A DNA stretch of 64,000 nt from Chloroflexota bacterium (GTDB lineage: Bacteria > Chloroflexota > Anaerolineae > UBA7937 > B3-Chlor), in NCBI GenBank assembly GCA_030613785.1, contig JAUWLF010000008.1, positions 1 through 64,000 on the forward strand. The letters run 5' to 3'. Made by a program: the position numbers and the translations under genes. Below, one piece after another: positions 14,283 to 63,002 of this stretch. The stretch's first letter is position 1; the number at the start of each line of letters is the position of its first letter. Below the pieces are notes generated by a model. That model did not search any database, was not told the DNA's origin, and saw nothing but the letters and a program-made list of their open reading frames with translations.

Positions 14283-14289
14283 TCATCGG

Positions 14290-14557: not shown

Positions 14558-14586
14558 TTGTCATACCCCGACGTGAAACCAATAAT
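14558..14586 (+). promoter_or_regulatory. Promoter for the Rrf2 regulator
   Basis: TTGTCA (14558-14563), 17-bp spacer, AATAAT (14581-14586), about 75 nt upstream of the preferred start. Autoregulation is common for Rrf2 regulators but no operator was identified. Confidence 0.5.
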
Positions 14587-14666
14587 CCGGGCTAGAGGAA
14601 CCTGCTGAGGGATTCAGCATGGGGGAGGAACACCGGCCCGATGGACGGTCCGAGAGGAGGTGGAGG

Positions 14667-15104
14667 GTGACGCTATTGAGTAGAGGCGCCGACTATGCCA
14701 TCAGGGCTATGCTGGATGTGGCCAGCCAGCCCGAGGATGAGAGAACGGTGACCCAGCGAATCGCTATCCGTCAGGACATACCGGCGGCATTTCTCAGCAA
14801 GGTGGTCGCCCAGTTGACCCAAGCGGGGCTGTTGCGCACCCATCGCGGCGCAGCGGGGGGCGTGCTTCTCGGCAAGCCTGCCGAAGAGATCAGCCTTCGT
14901 CAGGTGGTCGAGGCCGTCCAAGGGCCTCTCGTGATCAACCTGTGCACGGGCCCCTATGATGGGTGTCCTCGCATTGCGACTTGTCCCGCCTCAAGCGTTT
15001 TCAACGAGGCGCAAGAGAGCTTGGATGCGGTGCTGGATGGCGCGTGCCTGGCGGATCTGGCCAAGGAGGCGGCAGGTCTGGCGGCCAGCGGGGAGAGGGG
15101 ATGA
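14667..15104 (+). CDS. Rrf2-family Fe-S transcriptional regulator
   Basis: 145 residues from a GTG at 14667, chosen because AGGAGG (14655-14660) sits 6 nt before it and the protein then opens with TLLSRGADYAIRAML as in the family; an upstream ATG at 14619 would add 16 unrelated residues. The winged-helix region (VTQRIAIRQDIPAAFLSKVVAQL...GLLRTHRG) is followed by C93, C100 and C106, the usual three-cysteine Fe-S ligand set. Such proteins sense iron-sulfur status, nitric oxide or redox state. The gene stands directly upstream of the Hdr cluster, whose many Fe-S subunits are natural targets; that link is inference. Confidence 0.85.
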   Translation: MTLLSRGADYAIRAMLDVASQPEDERTVTQRIAIRQDIPAAFLSKVVAQLTQAGLLRTHRGAAGGVLLGKPAEEISLRQVVEAVQGPLVINLCTGPYDGCPRIATCPASSVFNEAQESLDAVLDGACLADLAKEAAGLAASGERG

Positions 15105-15286
15105 GGCCCCGGACCCTGACAAGTGACGTGCACGGCGCGTAGCGGTGGTGTAGTATCAGCCGCTTCAACGTGGTGGCCTTGCGCGCCTGCCATGGTCCAG
15201 GCGAAGTCCGGCTGTAGCCCAGCCTGAGCAGCTTGCAGATCATCGGCCACGCTAGATGGGCCATCCCTCACCGGGACGGGATTATT

Positions 15287-16498
15287 ATGGAATTCACCAA
15301 AGGGGACACGGTCGCCAGCCTGGATTTCAATTTCGAGGCCACGGTGGAGCAGAGGAGCGGCGAAGATCTTAGTCGCTGCTACTACTGCCTCAAGTGCACG
15401 GCTGGGTGTCCCTCGGCCCCCGCTATGCCCTATGGGCCCGCCCAGATGGTGCGCTTGGTGCAGCTTGGCTTGAAGGATGAGTTGCTGGAAAGCCGTAGTA
15501 TGTGGTTCTGTCTGCACTGTGAGACCTGTGGCGCTCGTTGCCCAAACGAGATCAGCATAGCGGGGCTGACCAGGGCGCTTCGCGAGATGGCCATGGAGGA
15601 AAAAGGGGAGATTCTCCAGGCGGATGCCGGCATTAAGGCCTTGCGCACCTTGGGTGAGAATATCATCGAGACGCACAACATCTCGGCCGACGACAATAGC
15701 CAGCGCTTGATGTGGAGCGAGAACCTGGAGCGCATCCCCGACGGACTCGAGATGAAGAAGGGAGCCAACACTGTCTATTTCGTGGGCTGCGTGTCCTCCT
15801 TCTTCCCCATGACCTATATCATTCCGCAGGCCTTCGTGCAGATACTGGAGGAGACCGGAGAGGACTTCACCGCCTTGGGGGGTGAGGAGTGGTGCTGCGG
15901 GTATCCACTGCTCATGGCCGGGATGGGCGCTCAGGCCGAGGAGACGGTACGCCACAACGTCGCCCGGATTCGGGAAGTCGGGCCCAAGAGGTTGGTCACC
16001 ACGTGCCCAGCCTGTTATCACATGTGGAAGCACTTCTATCCTGAGATCCTTGGCGAGGAGCTGGGCTGGGAGGTGGTGCACTCGACCCAACTACTAGCGG
16101 AGTTGCTGGATGAGGGACGCATCAAGTTGAAGGCCACACCCAGACGGGTAACCTATCACGACCCCTGCGATCTCGGCAGGAAGAACGACCTCTACGATGC
16201 CCCTCGTCGGGTGTTGGAGAGTATCCCAGAGCTTGCCCTCAAGGAGATGTCGGATAGCCGCCAGGATGCGCTCTGCTGCGGGGGTGGTGGCAACGTGGAG
16301 ACATTCAACCCCGAGCTGGTTGGAGAGTTGTCTCAGCGCCGCCTGGGACAAGCCCTCGAAACCGAGGCCCAAGTGATCGTATCAGCCTGTCCCCAATGTG
16401 AACGAACCCTCGCCGCCGAGGCCAGGCGGGAGAAGGCGAGGGTGAGGGTCATGGATTTGGTGGAGTTCGTCTGGCGGGCCTTGGATACGAGCGAGTAA
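15287..16498 (+). CDS. HdrC-HdrB fusion (Fe-S plus CCG-domain subunit)
   Basis: 403 residues from ATG 15287. The N-terminal part has two [4Fe-4S] motifs, C31-x2-C34-x2-C37-x3-C41 and C75-x2-C78-x2-C81-x3-C85, as in HdrC. The C-terminal part carries two cysteine-rich CCG domains (WCCGYPLL...CPACYHMW and HDPCDLGRKND...LCCGGGG...CPQCERTL), as in HdrB/HdrD, which hold the noncubane clusters that reduce disulfides. In bacteria this subunit hands electrons to or from an unknown disulfide or thiol carrier. It leads the hdrCB-hdrA-mvhD-frhB cluster. The ribosome-binding site is weak; the 18-codon upstream extension was not used because it lacks family similarity. Confidence 0.85.
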   Translation: MEFTKGDTVASLDFNFEATVEQRSGEDLSRCYYCLKCTAGCPSAPAMPYGPAQMVRLVQLGLKDELLESRSMWFCLHCETCGARCPNEISIAGLTRALREMAMEEKGEILQADAGIKALRTLGENIIETHNISADDNSQRLMWSENLERIPDGLEMKKGANTVYFVGCVSSFFPMTYIIPQAFVQILEETGEDFTALGGEEWCCGYPLLMAGMGAQAEETVRHNVARIREVGPKRLVTTCPACYHMWKHFYPEILGEELGWEVVHSTQLLAELLDEGRIKLKATPRRVTYHDPCDLGRKNDLYDAPRRVLESIPELALKEMSDSRQDALCCGGGGNVETFNPELVGELSQRRLGQALETEAQVIVSACPQCERTLAAEARREKARVRVMDLVEFVWRALDTSE

Positions 16499-16531
16499 GG
16501 GTCAAGGAGCAGCCTTCGTGGGAATGCGGCT

Positions 16532-19500
16532 GTGAAGGGAACGAAAGGGGCAGAAGGGCTCGGCGAGGTACTGGTTGTAGGGGGAGGCATCGCCGGCATG
16601 CAGGCTGCCTTGCTGGTGGCGGAGGTGGGGTTGAAGGTCCATCTCCTCGACAAAGCGCCGGCCATTGGCGGCTTCATGCCTTTGCTAGATAGAACCTTCC
16701 CCACCAATACCTGCGGGCTCTGCTTCATGTCGCCCTCAATCCCAGCCCTCTGTCCTTTCATCGAGTGCAGCCGTCATCCTCTCATCGAACTGATCCCCTA
16801 TGCCGACGTGGAGGGCGTAGAAGGAGGACCTGGGGATTTCGAGGTCTCCATTCTTCACAGGGCAAGATACGTAGACGTGGACTTATGTACTGGGTGCGGC
16901 GAGTGCGCCGCCGTGTGCCCCGTCGAAGTGCCCAGCGAGTTCGGCGGCGGGTTGGAGACACGTCGCGCCATCTACCGCCCTTACCCTCAGGCTTTTCCCA
17001 GCGCCTTCGTGGTGGACAAGAGCATCTGCACGGAGTGCGGCGAGTGCCTGAAAGCCTGTCAACCTGAGGCCATCAACCTCGAGATGGAGGATGAGCGTTC
17101 AACATTGAGCGTGGGGGCCATCATCCTGACCCCAGGTTTCGAGCCCTTCGACGCCGCTCTGAAGACCGAGTTTGGCTACGGCGTGCACGCGAACGTGTTG
17201 ACCAGCATCCAGTTCGAGCGCATGTTGAGCCTGACCAGCCCCTCGCGAGGATTGCCCCTGCGACCCTCGGACGACCAGCATCCCCGTCGCATAGGTTTCA
17301 TCCAATGCGTGGGCTCGCGAGACATCTCGTGTGACCGGGGCTACTGCTCCTCCATCTGCTGCATGTACGCCACCAAGCAGGCCATGCTGGCCAAGGAGCG
17401 CCTTCCAGGTGTTGAGGTCACCGTCTTTCACATGGACGTGAGAACTTCTGGCAAGGACTTCGAACGGTACTACGAGAGGGCCAAGGGGGAGTACGGCATC
17501 AACTACCGGCGCAGCATGGTCTCCAGGGTGAGGGAGCTGACTGACAGCATGAACCTCACCATGTCGTGCGTGGATGAGGAAGGGCGCCAGCAGGAGGAGG
17601 AGTTCGATCTGGTCGTGCTCTCCGTGGGCTTTGGACCTCCATCTGACGTCGAGAGGCTGGCAGCAAGCGCAGGCATACCGTTGAACGAATACGGGTTCTC
17701 CAGGACGGAGCCGTTCCTCCCCAGTAGCACTCCACGCCCCGGCATCTTCGTGGCGGGTGGGTTCAGGGAACCTCAGGACATCCCCCAGACGGTGGTCGAG
17801 GCCAGTAGTGCCGCGGCCGGAGCCGTTGAGCTCCTGGCAGCGAGTCGTCGGAGCGATGTTCTCCCGGAGTACCCGCCTGAGCGAGACGTCAGTGATGAGG
17901 ACCCTCGGGTGGGCGTCTTCGTCTGTCACTGCGATGGCACCATAGCCGAGGCGATGGATGTGCCGGCCGTGATCGAGCATGCAACTCAATTGGCGGATGT
18001 AGCCCACATTACCGAAGTGGTCGGGGCCTGCAAGCCCGAGGGTGTGGAGGTACTGAAATCGGCCATCGTCGAGAACGAGCTCAACCGCGTGGTGGTGGCC
18101 GGTTGTACGCATAGGCTCAACGGCCCGCTCCTGGAAGACGCAGTGCGGCAGGTGGGCTTGAACGCCTGTCTGCTGGAGAGGACGGACCTGCGGGAGGGGT
18201 GCGCCTGGGTTCACCGGGATGAGCCAGAGGAGGCCACTCTCAAGGCCCAGCAGTTGATAGCGATGGCGGTGGCCAAAGCCAGGCTGGCTGAACCGAGCGA
18301 GAGAGCGGAGGCCGGCGTCGCGCCGGGGGCACTGGTCATCGGCGGCGGAGTGGCGGGCATGGAGGCCTCACTGTCGCTGGCGAGGCAGGGCTTCCCAGTC
18401 CACTTGGTGGAGAAGGAGAAGGAGCTGGGAGGCAACCTGCGCCACATTCACTACACCATCACCGGCACCGATCCCCAGCGGTATCTGAAAGAGTTGATCG
18501 ACCAGGTGGAGGGCGAGGAGCTGATCACGGTCCATTTCGCTGCCCAAGTGAAAGAGGTAGTCAGCGCGCCGGGGCGGCACAGGACTCTCCTGTCCGCGAA
18601 CGGAAGGACGCTGGAGCTGGAGCACGGTGTGACCATTGTGGCGACAGGGGGGGAGGAGGTCAAACCCACCGAGTATCTGTATGGGGAACATCCTGGAGTG
18701 TTGACGCAGCGGGAACTGGAAGAGAGAATCTCCGCGAATGAGCAGGCCCTTGCCGGTGTGAAGAACGTGGTGATGATTCAGTGCGTGGGTTCGCGCGAGC
18801 CGACCCGACCCTATTGCAGTCGCATCTGTTGCTCCACAGCCATCAAGAACGCTCTCCGCATCAAGGAGCTGAACCCTGAGGCGAAGGTGGTCATCCTCTT
18901 CCGCGACATGCGGACCTATGGCTTCCTGGAGGACTTCTACCGCCAGGCGCGGGAACAGGGAGTGATCTTCGTCCGCTACGAGCGCGAGAACAAACCTGAC
19001 GTGGAGGCGGTCGACGGCGGATTGCGTGTGCGGGTCAGGGAGCCGATCCTGGGAGGCGACTTGGCTCTGGACGCAGATCTGTTGGTGCTCAGTGTGGGAG
19101 TCGAACCCGGCGATACCGAGACTCTGGCCAGCGTGCTTGGCGTACCGTTGGATGAGGACGGCTTCTTCCAGGAGGCGAACACCAAAGTGCGGCCTATGGA
19201 TTTCGAGGCTACGGGGATGTACCTTTGTGGCCTGTGCCACGCCCCGAAAACCATAGAGGAGTCCATCTCTCAAGCCAAGGGCGCTGCGATGCGTGCCGGG
19301 GTGATGCTGGCCAAACAGCGTCTCGACGGCCAGCTCGCGGTACCTTTTGTCAATCCTCGGCTGTGCATCGCCTGCGGCCTTTGCATAGAGACGTGTCCCT
19401 ACAGCGCCTTGGTCGCCGATGAGGAGACAGGCATCACGCAAGTCATACCTGTGCTCTGCGAGGGGTGTGGTGTGTGTTCGGTGGCCTGTCCCAGTGGCGC

Positions 19501-19564
19501 CATACAGCAGCGCGTATTCGAGAAGACACAGCTCATGGCTATGCTGGATGTGGCCCTGGATTAG
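16532..19564 (+). CDS. hdrA: Tandem HdrA fusion, FAD and Fe-S electron-bifurcation subunit
   Basis: 1010 residues. The first half has an FAD motif VVGGGIAGMQAA, cysteines in NTCGLCFMSPSIPALC, and a two-cluster ferredoxin insertion (CTGCGECAAVCP, CTECGECLKACQ). From about residue 458 a second HdrA begins (VGVFVCHCDG), with its own FAD motif VIGGGVAGMEAS near residue 600. Each half repeats the signature IQCVGSR...YCS-x-ICC. A terminal two-cluster ferredoxin (CIACGLCIETCP, CEGCGVCSVACP) closes the protein. HdrA is the flavin subunit that bifurcates or confurcates electrons between disulfide, ferredoxin and NAD(P)/H2/formate partners. The start GTG lacks a close ribosome-binding site. A duplicated HdrA is longer than the roughly 650 residues of the archaeal enzyme. 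Confidence 0.88.
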   Translation: MKGTKGAEGLGEVLVVGGGIAGMQAALLVAEVGLKVHLLDKAPAIGGFMPLLDRTFPTNTCGLCFMSPSIPALCPFIECSRHPLIELIPYADVEGVEGGPGDFEVSILHRARYVDVDLCTGCGECAAVCPVEVPSEFGGGLETRRAIYRPYPQAFPSAFVVDKSICTECGECLKACQPEAINLEMEDERSTLSVGAIILTPGFEPFDAALKTEFGYGVHANVLTSIQFERMLSLTSPSRGLPLRPSDDQHPRRIGFIQCVGSRDISCDRGYCSSICCMYATKQAMLAKERLPGVEVTVFHMDVRTSGKDFERYYERAKGEYGINYRRSMVSRVRELTDSMNLTMSCVDEEGRQQEEEFDLVVLSVGFGPPSDVERLAASAGIPLNEYGFSRTEPFLPSSTPRPGIFVAGGFREPQDIPQTVVEASSAAAGAVELLAASRRSDVLPEYPPERDVSDEDPRVGVFVCHCDGTIAEAMDVPAVIEHATQLADVAHITEVVGACKPEGVEVLKSAIVENELNRVVVAGCTHRLNGPLLEDAVRQVGLNACLLERTDLREGCAWVHRDEPEEATLKAQQLIAMAVAKARLAEPSERAEAGVAPGALVIGGGVAGMEASLSLARQGFPVHLVEKEKELGGNLRHIHYTITGTDPQRYLKELIDQVEGEELITVHFAAQVKEVVSAPGRHRTLLSANGRTLELEHGVTIVATGGEEVKPTEYLYGEHPGVLTQRELEERISANEQALAGVKNVVMIQCVGSREPTRPYCSRICCSTAIKNALRIKELNPEAKVVILFRDMRTYGFLEDFYRQAREQGVIFVRYERENKPDVEAVDGGLRVRVREPILGGDLALDADLLVLSVGVEPGDTETLASVLGVPLDEDGFFQEANTKVRPMDFEATGMYLCGLCHAPKTIEESISQAKGAAMRAGVMLAKQRLDGQLAVPFVNPRLCIACGLCIETCPYSALVADEETGITQVIPVLCEGCGVCSVACPSGAIQQRVFEKTQLMAMLDVALD

Positions 19565-19608
19565 CCCTTGGCCTTGGGAGACTGGGTGCGGAAGTTGGAG
19601 TTGTGATC

Positions 19609-20031
19609 ATGGATGATTTTGAACCCAGAATAGTAGCTTTCCTGTGCAACTGGTGTGCGTACACTGGAGCTGACCTGGCTGGTACGTCGAGGTTGCAGTA
19701 TCCGCCCAACGTGCGGGCCATTCGGGTGATGTGCAGCGGGGGTGTCGATCCTATCTACGTCATCAAGGCTCTCCTGGAGGGAGCTGACGGCGTGCTGATC
19801 GGAGGTTGCCACCCGGGGGATTGCCACTACCAGAGCGGCAACTTGAAGGCCCGCCGTCGGGTGGCCATCCTGAGGAGCATCCTGGAACAGTTGGGCCTCG
19901 ATCCTGACCGCGTGTGGCTACGCTGGATCAGCGCCAGCGAAGGCAAGCTCTTCGCCGACACCATCAAGGAGATGGTTGAGGAGCTGAAGGAGAAAGGACC
20001 AAACCCCATGCGCGAGGCTTGGGCGATCTAG
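19609..20031 (+). CDS. mvhD: MvhD-like hydrogenase iron-sulfur subunit
   Basis: 140 residues from ATG 19609, preceded by GGAG at 8-nt spacing. Cysteines C13, C16, C42, C67 and C72 (FLCNWCAYTGADLAG, MCSGGVDP, GGCHPGDCHY) form the [2Fe-2S] site typical of MvhD/FlpD. This small protein relays electrons between HdrA and a hydrogenase, formate dehydrogenase or NAD(P)H module. It lies 44 nt after hdrA and 24 nt before the FrhB-like gene, so all are likely in one operon. The HdrA/MvhD pairing supports a soluble bifurcating complex; the partner oxidoreductase is not resolved. Confidence 0.9.
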   Translation: MDDFEPRIVAFLCNWCAYTGADLAGTSRLQYPPNVRAIRVMCSGGVDPIYVIKALLEGADGVLIGGCHPGDCHYQSGNLKARRRVAILRSILEQLGLDPDRVWLRWISASEGKLFADTIKEMVEELKEKGPNPMREAWAI

Positions 20032-20055
20032 TTTAACTCAGCGGAGATACGACCT

Positions 20056-21192
20056 ATGAGTATACAGGCGACACTTGAAGTCAAGGATGGCGACGTGTTG
20101 GCCGCCTTGCGCGGGTTCCTGCGGCAACTCCTGGAGATGGGAATCATGGATGCCTTGCTGGTGCCCCTGGAGTTGCCCTCAGGAGATGCCATAGTGCAGA
20201 CGCTGGTCAAGGACGCAGGCAAACTGGAGAGTGCCAATCCTCTGGCGCCGGTGATGATGGTCAACTCCGCCAATGTGGTGTCCAACCTGACCCGCCTTGG
20301 GAACAGGGAGAAGGTGGGAGTGGTCCTGAAGTCCTGCGAGATGAGGGCGCTGGTGGAACTGGTCAAGTTGCAGCAGGCCAGTTTGGATAACCTCGTCACG
20401 ATCGGTGTGGACTGTCTGGGCACCTATGAGTTGACTCAGTATGCACAGTTGAGCAACGAGTTGGACGACAGCGCCGGGCCGTCCGTGGAGAAGCTTCACG
20501 CGGCGAAAGACGGGGAGGTCATACCTCGAGAGGGTTACGAGTTTCGGGCCGCTTGCCAGATCTGCGAATACCCCATCCCCATGAGCGTGGACATCAACAT
20601 GGCCTTCATAGGTGTGGACACGGAGACCATGATCTTGCTGGAGATGGAACCGGAGATAGGGCAAGAGGTGCTGGAGAAGCTGGGGTTGCAGGAGGGCGAG
20701 GCTCCGGCCAGAGAGGAGTCGGTGGCCAAGTTGGTGGCCGCCAGGGAGAAGGAGAGAGATGAGGCCTTCGCTCGGTTCCACGAGACCGTGAACGACACAG
20801 CCAGCCTCGTGGCTCAGTTCTCCACCTGCATCGCTTGTCACAACTGTACCACCGCGTGTCCCATCTGCTACTGCAAGGAGTGCATCTTCGAAACGGACAC
20901 GTTCAGACACCCGTCCGAGCGCTATCTCATGTGGGCCGAGCGCAAGGGTGCCGCCAGGATGCCCAGCGATACGGTGCTGTTTCAGTTGACCAGGATGAAC
21001 CACATGGTCAGTTCCTGTGTGGGATGTGGGATGTGTGAGAGCGCGTGCCCCAGCGACCTTCCTCTGGCGCTGATCTTCCGGGCCGTGGGTCAGAAGGTCC
21101 AGGAGTTGTTCGAGTACGTCCCTGGACGGAGCCTGGAGGAAGAACTCCCGGTGGCTACGTTCAAGGAAGACGAATTCCCTGAGTACAAGTGA
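20056..21192 (+). CDS. FrhB/FdhB-like Fe-S flavoprotein subunit
   Basis: 378 residues. The N-terminal and middle parts (VGVVLKSCEMRALVELVKL, then ACQICEYP and GVDTETMILLE) match the FrhB/FdhB C-terminal domain family that binds FAD and reduces F420 or a related acceptor. The C-terminal third has ferredoxin-type cysteines from residue 258 (CIACHNCTTACPICYCKEC) and 321 (CVGCGMCESACP). As last gene of the Hdr cluster it could be the electron entry or exit module in place of hydrogenase or formate dehydrogenase. Whether it uses F420, NAD(P)H or ferredoxin cannot be told from sequence. Confidence 0.8.
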   Translation: MSIQATLEVKDGDVLAALRGFLRQLLEMGIMDALLVPLELPSGDAIVQTLVKDAGKLESANPLAPVMMVNSANVVSNLTRLGNREKVGVVLKSCEMRALVELVKLQQASLDNLVTIGVDCLGTYELTQYAQLSNELDDSAGPSVEKLHAAKDGEVIPREGYEFRAACQICEYPIPMSVDINMAFIGVDTETMILLEMEPEIGQEVLEKLGLQEGEAPAREESVAKLVAAREKERDEAFARFHETVNDTASLVAQFSTCIACHNCTTACPICYCKECIFETDTFRHPSERYLMWAERKGAARMPSDTVLFQLTRMNHMVSSCVGCGMCESACPSDLPLALIFRAVGQKVQELFEYVPGRSLEEELPVATFKEDEFPEYK

Positions 21193-46145: not shown

Positions 46146-47816
46146 ATGGGTTCAGATACGAAGGTGCTGGTCATAGGCCTGGATGGCGTCCCGTTGAGCC
46201 TCATCCAATCCTGGGCTGACGAGGGTAGGCTGCCCACTTTACGGCGACTCATGGAACAGGGAGCTGTGGGGCAGTTGAGATCTACCGTACCTCCCACCTC
46301 TGGACCTTCTTGGTCCACTTTCATGACCGGCAAGAACCCTGGCAAGACAGGGATATACGATTTTCTCTATCGTCGGGAAGACAGCTACATCTTCCCACCA
46401 GTGAACGCCAGCAGGCGAGATGGCCTTACGGTCTGGAAACTCCTCAGTGACCAAGGCAAGAAGGTGGGGATAGTGAACGTGCCCATGTCCTACCCAGTGG
46501 AGGAAGTCAATGGCTATATGGTCAGCGGGTGGATGACACCCTATTCCGCCCAGGACTTCACCTTTCCGCCTGATCTATGGCGAGAGTTGAAGGAGAGAAT
46601 CGGGTACTACACCATATATCCCACGGAGACCTTCTCCGAGGCTCGTCGTGACAGCTTCCTCGCGGCTTGCGACGAGCTGTTGGACCAGCGAGCCAAGACT
46701 GCCCTCTACCTGATGGACAGGTATCCTACCGACTTCTTCATGCTCGTCATCTTCGACACCGACCGCATCCTACACCAGTTGTGGCATTATCTGGATCCAG
46801 GGCATCCGTGGCGAGAGCCTGGAGATGGTACAGACCAGAGCGGAGCCGTCGTTAGGTACTTCGAGAGGTTGGACGAGAAAGTGGGGGAGATAGTCAACAG
46901 GGCCGATGAGGATACGCTGGTCATCGTCCTCTCCGACCACGGCATGGGACCTGCCCACAAATTCATCGTCCTTAACAACTGGCTCCTGGAAACCGGGCTA
47001 CTGCGACTGAAACGCGACCCCTTCAGGCTTCTCAAGCATCAGGTCTTCAAGCTGGGCTTCACGTTGCGCAATGTCCACCGTATCGCTGACAAGATCGGCC
47101 TGGCTAAACATGCCGAGTACAAAGGCCTCTACTCACTGGACTACTTGATGAAACTCGTGTTCCTATCCTTCTTGGATGTGGACTGGTCCCGCTCCAAAGC
47201 CTACTCCTTCGGCCGTCACCTGGGCTCAATCTACATCAATGTCAAGGGCAGGGAGCCTGGGGGAATCGTGGAGCCAGGGGAGGAATACGAGGAGGTGCGG
47301 GATGAGGTCATCCGCCTGGCTCGAGAGTTCGTCGATCCACAGACGGGAGAGCCCCTCATCGGCGAGATCCTCAAGAGAGAGGACACCTATCATGGCCCGT
47401 ATCTCGACCAAGCGCCGGATCTCATTCTCCGACCACGGGATGAGAGGAACATTTTCTTCGGGTTGGCGGACTTTGGCTCCAACAACACCGTGGACACCGT
47501 CTACCGATACTCTGGCATGCACCGCGACTATGGTCTCCTCATGATGAGCGGTAAGGGTGTGAGGAAGGGCGCCAGGATCGAAGGTGCGGGCATCGAGGAT
47601 CTGGCTCCCACGATTCTCTACGCCATGGGATCGCCCATTCCTCAGGACATGGACGGGAGCCCCTTGACCGAGGTCTTCACCGAGGAATACAGGACACAAG
47701 TCCCCGTGCTCTGTGGCGAGGAGGGGTCCTCGAGGGAGGTCTGCGACCCAGGGTACACCGAAGAGGCAGAGGAAGAGATCAAGGAACGGCTGAAGGGTCT
47801 GGGGTATCTGGGCTAG
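46146..47816 (+). CDS. Type I phosphodiesterase / nucleotide pyrophosphatase-like (alkaline phosphatase superfamily)
   Basis: 556 residues, no signal peptide. VIGLDGVPLSL holds the first metal-binding aspartate (D13), TVPPTSGPSWSTFMTGKNPGKTGI the nucleophile region, FDTDRILHQLWH and LSDHGMGPAHKF further metal ligands. This is the cytoplasmic Chloroflexota/archaeal branch of the superfamily, of unknown phosphoester or sulfate-ester substrate. It ends by sharing CTAG with the opposing AcnX small-subunit gene, so the two convergent genes overlap by 4 nt. Confidence 0.85.
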   Translation: MGSDTKVLVIGLDGVPLSLIQSWADEGRLPTLRRLMEQGAVGQLRSTVPPTSGPSWSTFMTGKNPGKTGIYDFLYRREDSYIFPPVNASRRDGLTVWKLLSDQGKKVGIVNVPMSYPVEEVNGYMVSGWMTPYSAQDFTFPPDLWRELKERIGYYTIYPTETFSEARRDSFLAACDELLDQRAKTALYLMDRYPTDFFMLVIFDTDRILHQLWHYLDPGHPWREPGDGTDQSGAVVRYFERLDEKVGEIVNRADEDTLVIVLSDHGMGPAHKFIVLNNWLLETGLLRLKRDPFRLLKHQVFKLGFTLRNVHRIADKIGLAKHAEYKGLYSLDYLMKLVFLSFLDVDWSRSKAYSFGRHLGSIYINVKGREPGGIVEPGEEYEEVRDEVIRLAREFVDPQTGEPLIGEILKREDTYHGPYLDQAPDLILRPRDERNIFFGLADFGSNNTVDTVYRYSGMHRDYGLLMMSGKGVRKGARIEGAGIEDLAPTILYAMGSPIPQDMDGSPLTEVFTEEYRTQVPVLCGEEGSSREVCDPGYTEEAEEEIKERLKGLGYLG

Positions 47817-48214
47817 CTTCGTTGCGCTGGGCGCACAACCTCCACCGTGTCCCCATTGATGGTCACTTCGTCCCCCGTCTGTATCTGAGAGAGATCGATG
47901 CTGTCCACCATGGGTATCTCGGAGATGATGGCGCCCACTGCCACAACAGCCTCGCTTCGAGCGTTGATGATTCCTGCCGGGGCCAGGCCCTCTTTGCGAA
48001 GACGGTAGAGGGTGTACGAGCCGACGGTGCTGCCCTTGCCTCTGGGAAAGACCAGGATTGTGCCAGCGATGCAATGTCCCTCTAGCTCATGACCTGGCTC
48101 GATGACCACGCCGGTCTCTGGATCGACGCCGCCGAAGAAGCCTAACGGTTCATGGGAGACCAGTGCCTCTCCCTCCGCTCGTGCCTCCTTGATCGCTCTG
48201 CCGATCAGTTTCAC
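47813..48214 (-). CDS. AcnX small subunit (DUF126), phosphomevalonate dehydratase-type
   Basis: 133 residues from the GTG at 48214, chosen because it makes a GTGA overlap with the large subunit and gives the usual opening KLIGRAIKEARAEGEALV. EPLGFFGGVDPETG and PRGKGSTVGSYTLY (with the active-site serine near residue 62) define the swivel domain that completes the aconitase-X active site. With the large subunit it dehydrates 5-phosphomevalonate in the archaeal-type mevalonate pathway, or a hydroxyproline-type substrate in other clades. Tight linkage to ubiD favours the former. Confidence 0.88.
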   Translation of the reverse strand: MKLIGRAIKEARAEGEALVSHEPLGFFGGVDPETGVVIEPGHELEGHCIAGTILVFPRGKGSTVGSYTLYRLRKEGLAPAGIINARSEAVVAVGAIISEIPMVDSIDLSQIQTGDEVTINGDTVEVVRPAQRS

Positions 48215-49422
48215 CCCGGCCATCTCCCCTTGACGGCGGCCTCGACGCAGCGGTGTAGGGGACCGAACCGCACTTCCAGGTGGTGGTGTCCGTGGAGATA
48301 GAATGCTGCCTTTGCGGAATTGGTGGCCACCGTACTCAATCCCATCTCTTGCACAGGGGCACCTATGAGGCACGCATCGGCGACGACCTGACCGCCTGAG
48401 CGTTCTATCGTTTCGACGAGCCCCCTGATCCTGGCCTCGCCAAGCACCGCCCGCGCGGTGGTGATCCACAACTTGGCCCTTGTCGGTCTCCCTCCCAGCA
48501 GTGCAGCCACCTGCGCCAGCTCCCGCAGCGAGGCGTGAGGACAGCCGATCCAGACCAGATCGATCTCCTGGGCTGTGCCGTCCAGCGCTTCGTATCCCTC
48601 GTCGAGACCCTCGACGATTACGGGTACTGCATCATCGGCCAGGACGGTGTGCGCGTTCGCCTCGGGCGTGATTCCTTCGATGTGGTACAGGGCCACGGCA
48701 CCACTGGCCGCCATAGCGGCGCCCAGCGCCTTCAACTCCTCCGGTCCTGGCTTGCCGGGCGAATCGATCCGGAAGTAAGGTATTGCATCCTCTACCTCCC
48801 TGCCCACGATGTAGCCTAACGCGCCAAAATCCGCAACGGATTCGAGTGCGCAGTTGACTTGTACCAGATGGCGAGCCTGGCGGTTCTTCTCCAGGTGAAG
48901 GCCGTACTTGGCTGTGCGTCCCGTGATCGCTGCGGCTAGGGCGCTGGGGCCACCCTCGCGGTTGGTGCGCGCGCCAAGCACCGAGTTAGCGTAGCTCACT
49001 GCTGATGACTCGCTCCAGGCGATGTGCTGGCCGAGATCGGGGCGATTCCCCACCAGATATGGCGTACAAGAGCAACTTGGAACGATGCCCATGACGCGGT
49101 AGGCGTCGATGATCTTCAACTGGCACTGGGCGTACTCTTCCGGGACGCCCAGTTGTTCCCAGGCCTCAAGGTCCATTCCCGCTGGGTTGAGGGTCGTTGG
49201 CACTCTCACTCGGGCGCCTTGCTCTGCCCATTCCTGGATGAACTCCAAGCCTGCCTGACCCAGATTGCCGTAGCTGACGCCTGCTACCTGCACACTGGCC
49301 ACAGGCACCAGTCCTTCGGCCGCGTAGATCTTTCCCAGAGCGACCAAGATCTCCATCGCTCTCTTGGTGGCCGGGCCATAGTCCCCGGCCAACATCGCTT
49401 CTTCCTCAACTGTCAGGCGCAT
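48211..49422 (-). CDS. AcnX large subunit (DUF521), phosphomevalonate dehydratase-type
   Basis: 403 residues. Cysteines for an Fe-S cluster are in place: CSC (117/119) in PSCSCTPYLVGN, C294 in WIGCPHASL and C351 in DACLIGAP. WSESSAVSYANSVLGARTNREGG is the family core. With the DUF126 subunit it forms aconitase X, a dehydratase. In archaea this pair converts phosphomevalonate to trans-anhydromevalonate phosphate. It begins 9 nt after ubiD and overlaps the small subunit, so the three form one operon. Confidence 0.9.
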   Translation of the reverse strand: MRLTVEEEAMLAGDYGPATKRAMEILVALGKIYAAEGLVPVASVQVAGVSYGNLGQAGLEFIQEWAEQGARVRVPTTLNPAGMDLEAWEQLGVPEEYAQCQLKIIDAYRVMGIVPSCSCTPYLVGNRPDLGQHIAWSESSAVSYANSVLGARTNREGGPSALAAAITGRTAKYGLHLEKNRQARHLVQVNCALESVADFGALGYIVGREVEDAIPYFRIDSPGKPGPEELKALGAAMAASGAVALYHIEGITPEANAHTVLADDAVPVIVEGLDEGYEALDGTAQEIDLVWIGCPHASLRELAQVAALLGGRPTRAKLWITTARAVLGEARIRGLVETIERSGGQVVADACLIGAPVQEMGLSTVATNSAKAAFYLHGHHHLEVRFGPLHRCVEAAVKGRWPG

Positions 49423-49431
49423 GAGACTTCG

Positions 49432-50745
49432 CTACTTCCCATAGCTGATTCTCTTGAAGGTCTCTCTCTCCTCCGGAGATCGCAGCGCGCCCGTTGGGGT
49501 GCGCCAGGGGATGGTGGCGTCCAGCCCCATCTTTGTGGTACGGGTCTTCTTCCCAGAGAAGTGGATAGCCGAGGGGTCAAGGGAGCTGCCAGGCTGATCC
49601 TCGCGGACGATGAGGTCGGTGTGCGCTTGAAATCGGGTGGCAATGGCCCACTCGACATCATGGGGATCATAGATGTCTATGTCCTCGTCAACCACGACCA
49701 CGTGCTTGAGCGAGGAGTGGCCTCGGAAAGCAGCCTCAACGGCCCTCCGGCCGTCATCGGTCTCTCTCTTGTCGACTTGAACGACGGCATGCAACCAGGA
49801 AGCGCCGCCGTGTGTGAGGAGCACATTCAGGCAGTGACATCTCTTACTCACCTCGGTGTAGATGGTGGGTTCCCGCGGCAGCCCCATCAGCAGCTTGTGC
49901 TCCCGTCCACCTGGTAGCAACGCCTGGTATATGGGATCGGCCCGATGGGTCACACGCGTGATCTCGATAATGTGTCCCTCGCGGACGACGTCCATGGTTC
50001 CCGTCAGGTCGAGAAAGGGGCCTTCCGGTGCCCTTGCACTGGTGATTCGACCCTCAAGGACGAACTCCGTTTCAGCGGGGACTTGCAGATCCACGCTCAG
50101 GCACTTCACCAGGGGTGTTGTCCGGAGGGCGTTAGCGATGCTGAACTCGTCTACGTCCGGAGGGGGAGACATGGCGGCAGCCAGAAGAACCGGCAGCGAG
50201 TTTCCGATGCAGACAGCGACCTCCAGATCGCCTTCAGTCTTGCCCAGCGCGGTCTCAGTCCCACGACTCTCAACTATGCGGGCCACGAGCTGGCGGGGAC
50301 CGATCTGCAGCAGACGGTGGATGGAGACATTACGGCCACATTCGGGGTCTTTGATGACTGCGACTCCCGCTGTGACGTAGGGGCCTCCATCCAGGGGCAG
50401 GTGGGTCAGGATGGGCAACTGATCCAGGTTCACCTGTTCTTCAACGACCTCCTGACAGATGCCTGCCTCCAAGATATCAGGGGGCCGCGGACTAGCCAGG
50501 GCCCCGCTGAGGGCGAGAAGCAACCGGTCCGCGTCTACTCCCAGATCGAGGGCGAAGTTCTCACGTGCCCCGCAGAGGCCGGCCACGACTCGACAGTCAC
50601 GACCCCCTACTCTCTCGAAGAGGACGGGCCGCTCCCCGAGGTTGTGGATGACCGTAGCCATCTCCAGGTAGGGGTCAACCTCCCGCTGAATGGTCACCAA
50701 CCGGCCGCTGTCTCTCGCTTTCTCCAGGAACGATCTCAAGCTCAT
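49432..50745 (-). CDS. ubiD: UbiD-family decarboxylase, probable anhydromevalonate-phosphate decarboxylase
   Basis: 437 residues, GGAGGA just upstream of the ATG. The prenyl-FMN-dependent active site shows FVLEGRI (E231) and APEGPFLDLTG (E241); PILTHLPLDGGPYVTAGV and LLMGLPREPTIY are general UbiD motifs. UbiD enzymes decarboxylate alpha,beta-unsaturated acids. Next to AcnX subunits it matches the archaeal decarboxylase that makes isopentenyl phosphate from anhydromevalonate phosphate. The prenyltransferase UbiX that makes its cofactor is not in this window. Aromatic-acid decarboxylation is the main alternative. Confidence 0.88.
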   Translation of the reverse strand: MSLRSFLEKARDSGRLVTIQREVDPYLEMATVIHNLGERPVLFERVGGRDCRVVAGLCGARENFALDLGVDADRLLLALSGALASPRPPDILEAGICQEVVEEQVNLDQLPILTHLPLDGGPYVTAGVAVIKDPECGRNVSIHRLLQIGPRQLVARIVESRGTETALGKTEGDLEVAVCIGNSLPVLLAAAMSPPPDVDEFSIANALRTTPLVKCLSVDLQVPAETEFVLEGRITSARAPEGPFLDLTGTMDVVREGHIIEITRVTHRADPIYQALLPGGREHKLLMGLPREPTIYTEVSKRCHCLNVLLTHGGASWLHAVVQVDKRETDDGRRAVEAAFRGHSSLKHVVVVDEDIDIYDPHDVEWAIATRFQAHTDLIVREDQPGSSLDPSAIHFSGKKTRTTKMGLDATIPWRTPTGALRSPEERETFKRISYGK

Positions 50746-50852: not shown

Positions 50853-50861
50853 ATTATACCA
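50853..50861 (-). promoter_or_regulatory. Extended -10 promoter for the ubiD operon
   Basis: Minus-strand TGGTATAAT (50861-50853) has the TGn extension and a perfect -10; no good -35 is seen at 17 bp. The leader to the ubiD ATG would be about 100 nt and contains the GACCTCGGAGGTC palindrome plus a GGGG-6-CCCC hairpin. Confidence 0.5.
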
Positions 50862-50922
50862 GAACTTGCGCAGTTGGCAGCCAAACGCCCGTTGAGCGGT
50901 GTCCTGACCCGTCGAAGGTAGG

Positions 50923-52248
50923 CTAGATGGCTGTTCCGCCCTCTGCTTGGCCTACGAGGGACTTTGCGGCTGGACGGCTGCGCCAGTATAGCCACACAGC
51001 TTCGACCAAAGCTCCTACAGTGATGGCTGCGGCCCCCAGGACGGACCCCTGCATGTCGCTGTACCTCAAGCCGACGAAGAGAGTGAGCGCGACAATGCCA
51101 AGGTTGAGGGCCTTCGACGTGCGCACTACGGAGGTTTGAGCCTGTCTGACCAACAGGCCTGTGAAAAGGGCGTGGAATGTATAGCTCAAAGGCAACAGTA
51201 CCATGATCCTGGTTGCAGGGGCCACAAGCGCTGCTACCTGTTCCGAGAGTCCAAAGAGTTGGAGAAGAATCACTCCCAGCAGGGGAGTGAAGTTGATGAG
51301 GGCGAAGGACGCAGTCAAGGTCAGTCCTGCGGCCAGCACGAAGCGACTGACCTTGTGCCAGGAACGCTGATCCTTGGTCAAGGCCACAGTCACCTGCTGC
51401 AAACCCATGGTGGGTCCCCAGAACAGGCTCGTCAGGCTGACAGCCACGGGCCAGGCTGCAAGGGACAGCGCGGCCATCGGCGCGGCGGCGATCCCAGCGC
51501 TAATGAGGGGGCGAATCCCTTGCCGAAGAACCGTGGTGATAGCGAGAGGCAGGTAGAAAACCCCCAGATAGCGGAAGGTCGGGACTTCCGCATCGGAGGG
51601 TGCCCCCGCCAGCCTTCGACGGATGGTGGCTTGGGCCGCCCAGTGCATGATGCCAGACTCGACCGTCACTGCAACCAGCATCGCCAGAGCACCCAAGGTA
51701 GCGCCTGGGAGTATGTTGGTGGAGTTGCCGATGACCATCGTCCCCGACAGCACCACCAGGCGGATCGCTGTGCCGATGCTGATGATCCGGGTGCGACCAT
51801 CGGTGATGAGGACGCCCTGGTAGATGCGGCGCCAGCCGATAGGCAACGACCACCAAGTCAGAATGCGCAGGGCGGGCACCGTGGCCTCTGCTATCGCAGG
51901 AGGGATGTTCATCAGGCCGCAGAGGAGTACCCCGCAGAGGGGCGTGTAGAACAGAACCAGACCCAAGGCGGTGATGCCCACTCCAACGACCACGTAGAAC
52001 CGACGAATGACCCTGAAAGCCTGCAGGCTCTTGGACAGAGCTATGGTCAACTCTAGCATCATGAGAATGGGGGCTTCCACCACGAGGATGATGCTGATAG
52101 CTACTCCATAGGCAGCCAATGCCAGCTCAGCGTCCGGACCGCGGGCCAAGAAGGCATTGACCACCGGCCCCTCCATCAGCATCAGCATCCAGCTCAGGGC
52201 TAGCGGTATGTAGAGGAGCGAGATTGCCCTGTAGGTTAGCTTCTGCAA
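50923..52248 (-). CDS. Multi-pass transporter, MATE/MOP-superfamily-like (ANKH-like)
   Basis: 441 residues with about twelve hydrophobic segments, split in two similar halves (LLYIPLALSWMLMLMEGPVVNA... and GVFYLPLAITTVLRQGIRPLISAG...). The internal two-fold repeat and motifs such as GPVVNAFLAR and LAAYGVA fit the MOP flippase superfamily; I recall similar bacterial proteins grouped with progressive-ankylosis (ANKH) type transporters. Substrate unknown. It ends 178 nt past the ubiD start region and is transcribed in the same direction, so it may precede ubiD on the map without being in its operon. Confidence 0.65.
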   Translation of the reverse strand: MQKLTYRAISLLYIPLALSWMLMLMEGPVVNAFLARGPDAELALAAYGVAISIILVVEAPILMMLELTIALSKSLQAFRVIRRFYVVVGVGITALGLVLFYTPLCGVLLCGLMNIPPAIAEATVPALRILTWWSLPIGWRRIYQGVLITDGRTRIISIGTAIRLVVLSGTMVIGNSTNILPGATLGALAMLVAVTVESGIMHWAAQATIRRRLAGAPSDAEVPTFRYLGVFYLPLAITTVLRQGIRPLISAGIAAAPMAALSLAAWPVAVSLTSLFWGPTMGLQQVTVALTKDQRSWHKVSRFVLAAGLTLTASFALINFTPLLGVILLQLFGLSEQVAALVAPATRIMVLLPLSYTFHALFTGLLVRQAQTSVVRTSKALNLGIVALTLFVGLRYSDMQGSVLGAAAITVGALVEAVWLYWRSRPAAKSLVGQAEGGTAI

Positions 52249-58743: not shown

Positions 58744-59133
58744 ATGGGTAAGGTGGTAACCAAGCGGCCTCGCTTGAGCATAGACATCACCAACGGGAGC
58801 ATCAAGCGTCACATCAAGATCGCGGCCGCAAGACAGGACATGACGATCAAGGACTATTGCCTTGAGGCCATCACCGCGCAGTTGATGCGAGATGGGGAAC
58901 TGCCTTCTAAGGAGGAAGAGCGGCAGAGGGCGAACGCCCTTGCCGAGAGACCGGACCAACTTCGGGCGGAGATTGGGCCCATAGGAATTCGCGTGTGTGA
59001 ACTGATAGGGGCAGGGCATGACGGTGGCTGGGGACCGGGGATAAAGAGAGGTTATCCGCCCCTTGAGCTGGCGCGGCGGGAGATGTGTTACAGACCTCGG
59101 AGGTCTTGGAGACCTCGGAGGTTTCAGGAGTAG
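58744..59133 (+). CDS. Small RHH-like protein upstream of the type IIG RM gene
   Basis: 129 residues; GGGAGG precedes the ATG. Residues 10-50 (RLSIDITNGSIKRHIKIAAARQDMTIKDYCLEAI) resemble a ribbon-helix-helix DNA-binding motif, as in antitoxins and small repressors; an Ala/Arg-rich helix follows. The last 40 residues read through two palindromic repeats and look like non-conserved tail (RRSWRPRRFQE). It ends 5 nt before the RM gene, so it could repress that operon, working as a control protein. That is inference from position. Confidence 0.6.
   Translation: MGKVVTKRPRLSIDITNGSIKRHIKIAAARQDMTIKDYCLEAITAQLMRDGELPSKEEERQRANALAERPDQLRAEIGPIGIRVCELIGAGHDGGWGPGIKRGYPPLELARREMCYRPRRSWRPRRFQE
59092..59122. 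repeat. Two palindromic GACCTCGGAGGT repeats in tandem
   Basis: AGACCTCGGAGGTCT (59092-59106) and GACCTCGGAGGT (59111-59122) lie at the junction between the RHH gene and the RM start. The same palindrome occurs at 50798-50810. They may be operators, for example of the RHH protein, or dispersed repeats. Confidence 0.6.
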
Positions 59134-59138
59134 GAGAG

Positions 59139-62100
59139 ATGGATCAGCGCCTGTTGCCTCAGATCAAGCCCTACGTCAATCGCGGTCTGTTCTCTGACCA
59201 CTTCCTCGATGAACTCCTGCCGGATGCTGATTCATGGCAGGTGGACGAGGATGAGGTCCGTCTGGCCTGGCAGGCCGCCCTGAACCTGTACGGGCCTCGC
59301 AAGGACGAGTTGCCTCAACGAAACGAGGCCCAGCTCGAGCGGGAGTTCGTACGCCCTCTGCTGGAGGCGCTGGGCCACCACTTCGAGGTTCAGCCGTCCC
59401 TCCCTACGTCTGACGGTGTGCGCCGGCCCGACTATGCCTTCTTCGCCACTGAGGAAGACAAGGGGGAGGCCCTGCGGAAGCACAAGGGTGAGCTGGACTA
59501 TTTCAAGAGAGCCATCGCCGTCGGCGACGCCAAGCAATGGGGCAGGCCCCTGGACAAGAGGCGGCGCGTCGGTGCAGACAAGTTCGACATGTTGAGCCCC
59601 TCCTGGCAGATAGACTACTACCTGCGCATGAGCGAGGTGCCCTGGGGCATCCTCACCGACGGGCGCTTCTGGCGGCTGTACAGTCGTGACACCAGTTTTC
59701 GCCTGGACGTGCATTACCAGATAGACCTGCCTCACCTTGTGGCGCAGCGTGACATGGAAGCCTTCAAGTACTTCTTCCTCTTCTTCAGGCGCCAGGCCTT
59801 TGTGCGAGACGCGGAAGGCCTGTGCTTCCTCGACCGGGTCTACCAGGGAAGTCTGGAGTACGCTCGCGAGGTGGGGGACGATCTCAAGGAGAACGTCTAC
59901 AGAGCTCTCCGCCTGCTGGCGGAGGGGTTTCTCGAGACCCGAGGCAACGACCTCGACCCGGTGGGTGACCTCGAGGCGATCCACGAGAACTCTCTGGTCT
60001 ATCTGTACCGGCTGCTGTTCATCAACTACGCCGAGGATCGACGCCTGCTGCCGCGGCACACGCCCCTGTACAGAGAGACCTACGGTCTGGTGTCCATGGA
60101 GGGAGAGATCGCGAGTAAGCTCGAGCGGCGAGAGGCCCTGTCCCCTCTCCAGGCGACCTACTGGGAAAGACTGGACGCGCTCTTCGACCTCATCAACCGG
60201 GGCAGTGAGGCCTTTGGGATAGAGCAGGACACTCTGCTCGTGCCTCCATACAACGGAGGCCTGTTCGACCCTCAGCGCCACCCGTTCCTGGAGCGGAACA
60301 AGGTCGCTGACCGCTGGCTGGCTCCGGTCATAGACCTCCTGGCCCGCTCCAAGGGCGAAGGAGCGGGGAGGGCCTTCGTGGACTACTCCAGCCTGGACGT
60401 GCGGCATCTGGGCTCCATCTACGAGGGGCTGCTGGAGTACAAACTCCGCGTCGCCGAGGAGGAGAGGGTGGCGGTCAAGCGGCGACGGCGAGAGGAATGG
60501 GTTCCTGCCACGGAGGCAGAGGGCAAGCGGATTGTGGAGCGGGTGAAGGCCGGTGGGCTGTATCTGGCCACTGATCGTGGGGAGAGGAAGGCCACGGGAT
60601 CGTACTACACTCCGGATTACATCGTCAAGTACATCGTCGAGCACACCGTCGGGCCGCTCATCGAGGAGAAGATGAAGGAACAGGACGCCATCGACGGCAT
60701 CCTCTCCTTGAAGGTGCTGGACCCGGCCATGGGCTCCGGGCACTTCCTGGTGGAAGCCACCGACAGGCTGGCCCACGCGCTGGTGGAGGCCCTGGGCGGG
60801 AGCGAGGAGGAGACTGAAGAAGAGGACATCCGCTGGGCCAGGCGAGAGGTGGTGGAGAGGTGCATCTACGGCGTGGACCTGAACCCGCTGGCCGTCGAGT
60901 TGGCCAAGCTGAGCCTCTGGCTGCACACCGTGGCCGAGGGGAAGCCCCTCAACTTCCTGGATCACCACTTGAAGGCGGGGAACAGCCTCATCGGGGCCTG
61001 GGTGGAGGACCTGGGGAGCCTGCCGGTGCGAAGAAAGAGGGGCAAGGCCAAAGAGCCGGTGCGCGAAGCGCGCCAGATGAACCTCTTCGAGACTAGGCTG
61101 ACTGAGAAGTTGCGCCTGATGCTGAAGGGTGTGCTGGACATAATCGACCGGCGGAGCGACACTCTCGATGATATCAAGGCCAAGACCGCCGCCGACCAGG
61201 CTGTCGAGCAATTGAAAGCGCCCTTCAAGGCGGTAGGCGACCTGTGGGTTAGCACCTACTTCGGCAACGAGGTGACGGAAGGCCAGTATCAAGAGGCCTT
61301 GGAACGCATCGGTGAGCCGGGGCAACTCCTGGCTCTTGCGTGGGTTAAGGAGGCCCAGGACATAACGGAGGACAAGCGGTTCTTCCACTGGGAACTAGAG
61401 TTCCCGGAGGTGTTCTACGAGGATTCGAAGAGAGGGGAGAACCCCGGGTTTGATGCGGTGGTGGGGAATCCACCCTATGTTGCGTTCTACTCTCGGGAAT
61501 CCACTAAGCCTTCCGTGGAAGAAGAACGATACCTGGCGACTACCTATTCAGACGAGGTTGGTGGCCGAATCAACACGTTCCTGCTCTTCCTCGCGCAGAG
61601 TCTGCGCTTGACGCGCCAAGGCGGGTGTGCAGCGCTCATAGTCCCTGACACGCTGATCCACAATGAGTCCTACGAGGACACGCGCCGGTATCTCCTGGAC
61701 AGGGGGCGTGTTCAGGTGATTCACAAGCTGGCGTTCCCAGTGTTTGCGGATCCAACAGTCCGCTCAGCGATCCCCGTCGTTGCCAAGGGGTCACCAGGGG
61801 AGGTGGAACTCTTGGTTAGTGCCAGTGAGGCGGCATTTCGCGCACAGACACCCGATGTTCATCTAGTGCTGCCGGCGCGCGAGATCGTGGCGCTCCCGAA
61901 GGCTCGATTCCCTTTCATGCCGCCACAAACCTTTCGGCTCAACAGGAAGATGTCGACCCAGTCGATCCCTCTAGGCGCGCTGGCCGAAGTCCGGGACGGC
62001 ATCAACCCTGGACCTAGGGCTTTCCGTGAGCAGATAGTCAACCCCCCAGGCCCACGCAAGAGCACATGGCACCGTCTCATTGAGGGGGAGGACATTTTCA

Positions 62101-63002
62101 GATATGAGGTTCTGTGGTCTGGCAAGATCGTCGACTACGATCCCTCACTGCTTGACCGTGACCTAAAGGCTCAGGGCGCGTCATTTCGCGAGCTTTGGAT
62201 CTTCTCATCGCCCAAACTCGTGAGCAGGCAGACCTCGGACAGGCTGTCCTTCGCGTACGACGACACTGGCCTCTACGCGCTCAACTCGGTACATCACACG
62301 ATACTGCGGGAGGGAACCGAGTACTCCATCCTTTATGTCCTCTCTCTCCTGAATTCGTCGCTGATGAACCAGTACTACAGGTCGGAATCGCAAGAGACCC
62401 GCAAAGTATTTCCCCAGGTGCACATATCCGCCCTGAAGCTGTTGCCTATCCGTCGCATCGACTTCAGCACGCCTCCCGGCCGCCGCTCGCAGCTGGCTGA
62501 TAGAGGCCGGAAGCTTCTCCGGCCCAGCCCACGGGAGGGCCGTGTCGAGGTGCTCAAGTTCGTGCAGGACCGGAAGGTGCGCGGCGAAGCCGACGTCGTC
62601 CACGATGTGCTAGTCTATCTGGCCGAAGAGATGATCGAGATGAACAAGAAGAAGAAGGCGGAGGCGAAGGGTTTCCTGGATTGGCTCGTGGGCTACACCC
62701 GCCTGCCTATCGAGGATTGGCGCCTGAAGACCCGCGTCAAGGCGTACTGGCAACACGGTTGGGACGAGGTGCGACGGGCGCTGCGACAGAACCGCAAGGC
62801 CATCGAGGAAGCCAGTGGCCGGAACGTGGAGAGTCGAGAGACCCTGGAGGCGATTCAGAAGGAGTTCGACCAATCGGTCACCCGGCTCGAACCGCTGTTG
62901 GAGCGCATTGCGAGCACTGACCGCTTGATTGATCTGATCGTGTATCGTCTCTATGGGTTGACGGAGGAAGAGGTTGCGATAGTGGAAGAGAGTGTGAACT
63001 GA
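59139..63002 (+). CDS. Type IIG restriction-modification enzyme (Eco57I-like)
   Basis: 1287 residues from ATG 59139, preceded by AGGAG. The N-terminal nuclease is a PD-(D/E)XK fold: P97-D98 in RRPDYAFF and D130-A-K132 in VGDAKQW. The methyltransferase has SAM motif I at about 528 (VLDPAMGSGHFLVEA) and the catalytic NPPY near 777. From about 870 a target-recognition region follows, and the C-terminus ends with IDLIVYRLYGLTEEEVAIVEE as in related enzymes. One polypeptide cuts and methylates. BREX-type PglX is the close alternative but no pglZ or brx genes are present. The upstream RHH protein may regulate it. Confidence 0.88.
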   Translation: MDQRLLPQIKPYVNRGLFSDHFLDELLPDADSWQVDEDEVRLAWQAALNLYGPRKDELPQRNEAQLEREFVRPLLEALGHHFEVQPSLPTSDGVRRPDYAFFATEEDKGEALRKHKGELDYFKRAIAVGDAKQWGRPLDKRRRVGADKFDMLSPSWQIDYYLRMSEVPWGILTDGRFWRLYSRDTSFRLDVHYQIDLPHLVAQRDMEAFKYFFLFFRRQAFVRDAEGLCFLDRVYQGSLEYAREVGDDLKENVYRALRLLAEGFLETRGNDLDPVGDLEAIHENSLVYLYRLLFINYAEDRRLLPRHTPLYRETYGLVSMEGEIASKLERREALSPLQATYWERLDALFDLINRGSEAFGIEQDTLLVPPYNGGLFDPQRHPFLERNKVADRWLAPVIDLLARSKGEGAGRAFVDYSSLDVRHLGSIYEGLLEYKLRVAEEERVAVKRRRREEWVPATEAEGKRIVERVKAGGLYLATDRGERKATGSYYTPDYIVKYIVEHTVGPLIEEKMKEQDAIDGILSLKVLDPAMGSGHFLVEATDRLAHALVEALGGSEEETEEEDIRWARREVVERCIYGVDLNPLAVELAKLSLWLHTVAEGKPLNFLDHHLKAGNSLIGAWVEDLGSLPVRRKRGKAKEPVREARQMNLFETRLTEKLRLMLKGVLDIIDRRSDTLDDIKAKTAADQAVEQLKAPFKAVGDLWVSTYFGNEVTEGQYQEALERIGEPGQLLALAWVKEAQDITEDKRFFHWELEFPEVFYEDSKRGENPGFDAVVGNPPYVAFYSRESTKPSVEEERYLATTYSDEVGGRINTFLLFLAQSLRLTRQGGCAALIVPDTLIHNESYEDTRRYLLDRGRVQVIHKLAFPVFADPTVRSAIPVVAKGSPGEVELLVSASEAAFRAQTPDVHLVLPAREIVALPKARFPFMPPQTFRLNRKMSTQSIPLGALAEVRDGINPGPRAFREQIVNPPGPRKSTWHRLIEGEDIFRYEVLWSGKIVDYDPSLLDRDLKAQGASFRELWIFSSPKLVSRQTSDRLSFAYDDTGLYALNSVHHTILREGTEYSILYVLSLLNSSLMNQYYRSESQETRKVFPQVHISALKLLPIRRIDFSTPPGRRSQLADRGRKLLRPSPREGRVEVLKFVQDRKVRGEADVVHDVLVYLAEEMIEMNKKKKAEAKGFLDWLVGYTRLPIEDWRLKTRVKAYWQHGWDEVRRALRQNRKAIEEASGRNVESRETLEAIQKEFDQSVTRLEPLLERIASTDRLIDLIVYRLYGLTEEEVAIVEESVN

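Follow-up and report, generated by a model that had tools for sequence, protein, structure and literature searches.

An operon of a Chloroflexota bacterium very probably encoding two steps of the archaeal mevalonate pathway

A 64,000-nt stretch of DNA from a Chloroflexota bacterium (NCBI GenBank assembly GCA_030613785.1, contig JAUWLF010000008.1, positions 1 to 64,000; hereafter the window) carries an operon of three genes, ubiD followed by the genes for the large and small subunits of aconitase X (AcnXL and AcnXS). Judging from its sequence, the operon very probably encodes the phosphomevalonate dehydratase (PMDh, AcnX type IIb) and UbiD decarboxylase steps of the archaeal mevalonate pathway, and was gained from archaea. 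An archaeal-type mevalonate module had been proposed in a first-pass annotation of this DNA, and it is supported here by the PMDh residues, the motif of AcnX-linked UbiDs, the pathway gene content and phylogenetic trees.

The three genes form a unit on the minus strand from 50745 to 47813, as the first-pass annotation had placed them, and Pfam confirms all three. The ubiD gene (50745-49432) encodes 437 aa with UbiD_N, UbiD and UbiD_C domains, and is separated by 9 nt from the AcnXL gene (49422-48211, 403 aa), whose product matches PF04412 at 505 bits over positions 1-400 of 400. The gene for AcnXS (swivel domain, DUF126; PF01989, 114 bits) ends at 47813 and starts either at GTG 48214, with a 4-nt overlap with AcnXL, or at ATG 48223, with an overlap of 13 nt; the junctions first described, of 9 and -4 nt, are borne out with the GTG start. 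As examined for the PMDh type, the large and small subunits are separate and encoded together by overlapping genes. A chance match is excluded, because the E value of AcnX is ~1e-151 and two further genera of this family keep the block.

Assignment of AcnXL and AcnXS as PMDh is well supported by sequence comparison. The best solved relative of AcnXL is T. kodakarensis AcnX (7cnr/7cns, 362 bits), hydroxyproline dehydratases reaching at most 250 bits, and AcnXS scores 142 bits with the T. kodakarensis small subunit (7cnr_B) versus at most 62 bits with hydroxyproline enzymes. In T. kodakarensis PMDh, mevalonate 5-phosphate is contacted by Gly48, Val49, Ser50, Asn53, Asn79, Pro80, Ser130 and Lys361, and the cluster cysteines of A. 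pernix PMDh are Cys122, Cys297 and Cys356 (PMC10040528). By alignment, the window AcnXL keeps all tested substrate-contact residues (G48, V49, S50, N53, N79, P80, S139, K371). Cysteines C119, C294 and C351, conserved in PMDh rows, occupy the positions of the A. pernix cysteines, so that all the Fe-S cysteines announced earlier are indeed present, and the DUF126 serine also holds, the GKGSTVGSY loop being conserved in AcnXS. The full string (G48, V49, S50, N53, N79, P80, C119, S139, C294, C351, K371) was identical in 61 of 110 AcnXL rows, the window included; another 26 deviated at N53 alone (S or T), one had GIS and one was truncated. Archaeal PMDh (Aeropyrum pernix; T. kodakarensis, 7CNR/7CNS) has the same two subunits, three cluster cysteines and substrate-contact residues as the window. 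Compared with T. kodakarensis, the window AcnXL is extended at the C-terminus and has 9 extra residues around positions 85-95, and its host is a bacterium.

The genome encodes six UbiDs. In the AcnX-linked one, the active-site motif is EGPFLD, and Asp was found at the second acid position in all 47 AcnX-linked UbiDs compared (archaeal and Chloroflexota); the other five UbiDs of the genome have Glu there (EGPxGE). The glutamates initially ascribed to UbiD were thus half right: the first is E241, within EGPF, whereas Asp246 takes the place of the second. This residue favours an archaeal-type enzyme, since AcnX-linked archaeal UbiDs carry Asp at that position. EGPF-x-Asp appears to be a signature of AcnX-linked UbiDs, as observed in the sequences compared here. 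For the prenylated FMN (prFMN) site, the domains and the catalytic-site residues R144, E241 and D246 are present. In the UbiD tree, the window protein branches within the archaeal AcnX-linked UbiDs, away from the genome's five other UbiDs. Its best PDB matches were 6h6x/6h6v, and no chain among its PDB matches was named as anhydromevalonate-phosphate decarboxylase (AMPD). The window UbiD resembles, in its sequence features, archaeal AMPD, with which it shares EGPF-x-D, R144, adjacency to AcnX and tree grouping. Three more UbiDs of the EGPxGE type lie at most 26 kb apart on contig C104 of the same genome (L042, L044, L045), perhaps for aromatic-acid metabolism.

Other genes of the pathway were found in the draft genome (G000; 95% complete, 6.6% contamination, 184 contigs). 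HMG-CoA reductase, an archaeal-type HMG-CoA synthase, a thiolase and a DUF35-like Zn-ribbon/OB protein (a name judged by eye from the sequence and a weak BbsA match) are encoded in a row on contig C95 (L009:7238-11355). Mevalonate kinase (MVK, 241 bits versus a cut-off of 163) and isopentenyl phosphate kinase (IPK, 182 versus 120) are 0.7 kb apart on C26. Contig C138 encodes UbiX (TIGR00421, 235 bits versus 109), which would supply prFMN, and isopentenyl diphosphate (IPP) isomerase 2 (IDI2, 410 bits versus 281). MVK, IPK, HMG-CoA reductase, archaeal-type HMG-CoA synthase, UbiX and IDI2 each scored above the curated cut-off. DXR and IspG of the methylerythritol phosphate (MEP) pathway had no match in the draft genome. 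What was found is the reverse of a complete MEP pathway lacking MVK or UbiX, the situation that the first-pass annotation had named as contrary to its proposal, and HMG-CoA reductase and IPK, which it had also listed, are present as well. The scattered genes of G000 are tied to one pathway by the clusters of two relatives: G411 (L048) has MVK, UbiD, AcnXL, AcnXS and IPK within ~7 kb, together with an intervening protein-kinase-like gene, and G136 (L024) has UbiD-AcnXL-AcnXS-IPK. On C26 (L008:5608-9425), MVK, a double cupin-like protein, IPK and an RNA 3'-terminal phosphate cyclase follow one another on the same strand.

In the proposed scheme, the upstream steps would be carried out by thiolase/DUF35, HMG-CoA synthase, HMG-CoA reductase and MVK. 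AcnXL and AcnXS would form PMDh, which, with C119, C294 and C351 as ligands of a [4Fe-4S] cluster, would convert (R)-mevalonate 5-phosphate into trans-anhydromevalonate 5-phosphate by loss of its 3-hydroxyl. UbiD, using prFMN from the genome's UbiX, would decarboxylate this compound to isopentenyl phosphate, which IPK would convert to IPP and the type 2 isomerase then to dimethylallyl diphosphate (DMAPP). By the gene content seen, the archaeal-type module would be the isoprenoid route of the organism, its dehydratase and decarboxylase genes having presumably been acquired from archaea by horizontal transfer and then inherited as an operon in the family.

AcnX was above the Pfam cut-off in 27 of 41 genomes (G000 and 40 relatives), and 17 of the 19 AcnX fetched from those genomes were of the PMDh type. 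DXR was detected in two of the 40 genomes checked, one a marginal partial match. Because long branches meet among the non-PMDh rows of the all-type AcnXL tree, the transfer test was made on PMDh-type rows only. The AcnXL tree of 60 rows has one clade of 17 Chloroflexota sequences, that of the window among them (A, support 99/99), which is spread over many families of its class, and a second clade of six Chloroflexota rows (B, 100/100), apart from A and beside the Asgard archaea Lokiarchaeota and Thorarchaeota. The UbiD tree has Chloroflexota in the same two places among archaea. Forcing all Chloroflexota into one clade was rejected by the approximately unbiased (AU) test for AcnXL (p-AU 4.5e-7) and for UbiD (p-AU 2.7e-51), values that are optimistic, as groups A and B were named after the first tree. 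Two acquisitions are likely because the AcnXL and UbiD trees agree, and these sequences indicate that Chloroflexota probably gained the AcnX-UbiD pair at least twice. We also favour, with less assurance than the assignment of the operon itself, the broader account in which Chloroflexota acquired the archaeal pair in two or more independent events, it is the sole detectable route in the window lineage, and PMDh reached other bacterial phyla too.

These trees bear on the most serious alternative, that the Chloroflexota module was inherited vertically from an ancient ancestor of bacteria and archaea, with enzymes working as proposed above. It would agree with the many genomes of the class that carry the module, but not with the nesting of Chloroflexota inside archaea in two places in both trees, nor with the rejection of the single-clade constraints (p-AU as above), and it is improbable. 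The first-pass annotation had left the choice between horizontal gain and an ancient variant; horizontal gain is favoured, the genes nesting inside archaeal diversity, and the ancient variant is disfavoured. The trees further group the window AcnX and UbiD with archaeal PMDh and AcnX-linked UbiDs, and not with other-type AcnX or with the genome's other UbiDs, the test that had been suggested for them.

Several points weigh against a PMDh operon serving as the isoprenoid route. The pathway genes are scattered on four contigs (C14, C26, C95, C138), and the draft state of the genome makes gene absences provisional. The binding residues of AcnXL were located through sequence alignment rather than in a model of its structure, and it is from sequence, signatures, gene content and trees that we infer enzyme activities and flux. 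In addition, a mevalonate decarboxylase accompanies the module in relatives G072, G200 and G416, so that these genomes may have another route besides it. The module could then be real but accessory in the window genome too, running parallel to a phosphomevalonate or diphosphomevalonate decarboxylase branch, an arrangement for which the decarboxylase gene divergent from the operon in G072 also speaks. A search for GHMP kinases (PF00288) over the whole draft genome argues otherwise: it gave a single match, MVK, in G000, and a single match in G401 of the same family, and neither phosphomevalonate kinase nor mevalonate decarboxylase was found by it in the 95% complete draft of G000. The absence of a decarboxylase is meaningful because PF00288 does detect the mevalonate decarboxylases of G072, G200 and G416. 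A concern that PF00288 misses such enzymes was dropped, weak matches in relatives having included decarboxylases; one weak match (L152) looks like another sugar kinase. An accessory role in G000 is thus quite unlikely. A Chloroflexi variant with phosphomevalonate decarboxylase and IPK, reportedly described by Dellas et al. in 2013, also proceeds via isopentenyl phosphate and IPK. It differs in its use of a GHMP-family decarboxylase, none of which was found in G000.

Less plausible still is an AcnX of bacterial type IIa or IIc-f, a cis-3-hydroxyproline dehydratase or an enzyme for another substrate, that neighbours an unrelated UbiD by chance. The window protein scores 329 bits versus the hydroxyproline-type cut-off of 700, which is weak evidence alone since this cut-off was set for a fused one-chain protein. 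The PMDh substrate signature, complete in the window, is lacking from the other-type Chloroflexota AcnX surveyed, all 21 of which have different strings. Long, fully supported branches part the two AcnX types in the tree, and the same AcnX type as in the window usually adjoins UbiD across archaea. On the residues and the tree, we reject a hydroxyproline enzyme.

The operon is common to three genera of one family, with AcnXL identities of 73% and 70% in the two other genera. Genome G400 (L155) of this family keeps the flanking phosphodiesterase gene (82% identity), and G401 (L154) keeps YvcK and the MATE-like gene (69%). The nearest named relatives are Anaerolineae/Chloroflexi metagenome-assembled genomes (MAGs). 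That the operon lies on a mis-binned archaeal contig, as the 6.6% contamination and the archaeal type of its genes might suggest, is contradicted by this same-family synteny (YvcK, MATE, phosphodiesterase), by characteristically bacterial genes on the contig, among them those for FtsK, DNA polymerase I, YvcK, ArgS and YebC, and by a GC content of 57-60% on all G000 contigs examined, and can be given practically no weight.

Several further arrangements were seen in other genomes. In the clade B genome G072 (C1, L149:1060-5792), UbiD-AcnXL-AcnXS and a diphosphomevalonate/phosphomevalonate decarboxylase gene (TIGR01240, 253 bits) diverge, and UbiX is just downstream, which puts two mevalonate branches side by side. 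Genes for PMDh-type AcnX large and small subunits directly precede secA in a Planctomycetota MAG (L110:6878-11476), which has no DXR in the genome and no UbiD within the stretch examined around AcnX. A KSB1 MAG (L123:7001-9388) has PMDh-type AcnX large, small and IPK in a row, adjoining a hybrid histidine kinase and a TolB-like gene; in both MAGs the PMDh-type AcnX stands beside bacterial genes. Caldilineales-type and related Chloroflexota (L063, L064, L067-L073, L090, L023, L025) have PMDh-type AcnXL with neither AcnXS nor UbiD in the flanks, a wider search not having been made. In L075, AcnXS is 1.3 kb upstream of the PMDh-type AcnXL.

Downstream, a convergent gene of the type I phosphodiesterase family (46146..47816, plus strand, PF01663) overlaps the AcnXS stop by 4 nt and marks the end of the operon. 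Upstream, 177 nt separate ubiD from a gene for a MATE-like membrane protein (50923..52248, minus strand, weak MatE/ANKH Pfam matches). Within this gap, ~108 nt upstream of ubiD, lies a possible sigma-70-type promoter (50853..50880, minus strand; CTGCCA-16-TATAAT with TG before the -10), a weak candidate by consensus match only, as the scan found one site versus 0.6 expected by chance. Elsewhere in the window, a RACo-type corrinoid activator, a malic enzyme, a 1010-aa HdrA-like flavin/Fe-S protein and an FrhB-like Fe-S protein are encoded close together (10923-21192) and may form a one-carbon/corrinoid electron-transfer cluster. The window also encodes a probably secreted 1902-aa protein with about ten DUF11 repeats (4455-10163) and a 1305-aa Eco57I-like single-chain restriction-modification enzyme with a TaqI-like specificity domain (59085-63002).

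The archaeal mevalonate pathway was called unique to archaea in 2023 (PMC10040528); a 2026 article, which cites Kanno et al. 2024, states that an archaeal-type pathway is encoded by some Chloroflexota (PMC13001223). The pathway type is thus already reported in Chloroflexota, and the window is a further, well-supported member. Kanno et al. reportedly described it in 2024 in a Chloroflexota bacterium, Ca. Promineifilum breve; their abstract is said to report PMDh and AMPD activity in assays of the P. breve enzymes, to suggest horizontal transfer and to mention further Chloroflexota MAGs. P. breve belongs to the same phylum as the window genome and, by gene content here, has the same pathway. The two separate Chloroflexota clades in both trees and the rejection of a single clade may be additions to this knowledge.

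Previously reported in one Chloroflexota bacterium, the archaeal mevalonate pathway is extended by the present results to many families of the class, and the window lineage is a case where the archaeal-type route appears to be the sole isoprenoid route. The residue signature parts likely PMDh from other bacterial AcnX, which automatic models name only as a hydroxyproline enzyme, and such bacterial enzymes could be of use for isoprenoid engineering that saves ATP. How one mevalonate branch replaces another can be studied directly through the two apparent transfers, together with genomes having both branches; these independent transfers and the relatives in which the branches co-exist deserve most attention.

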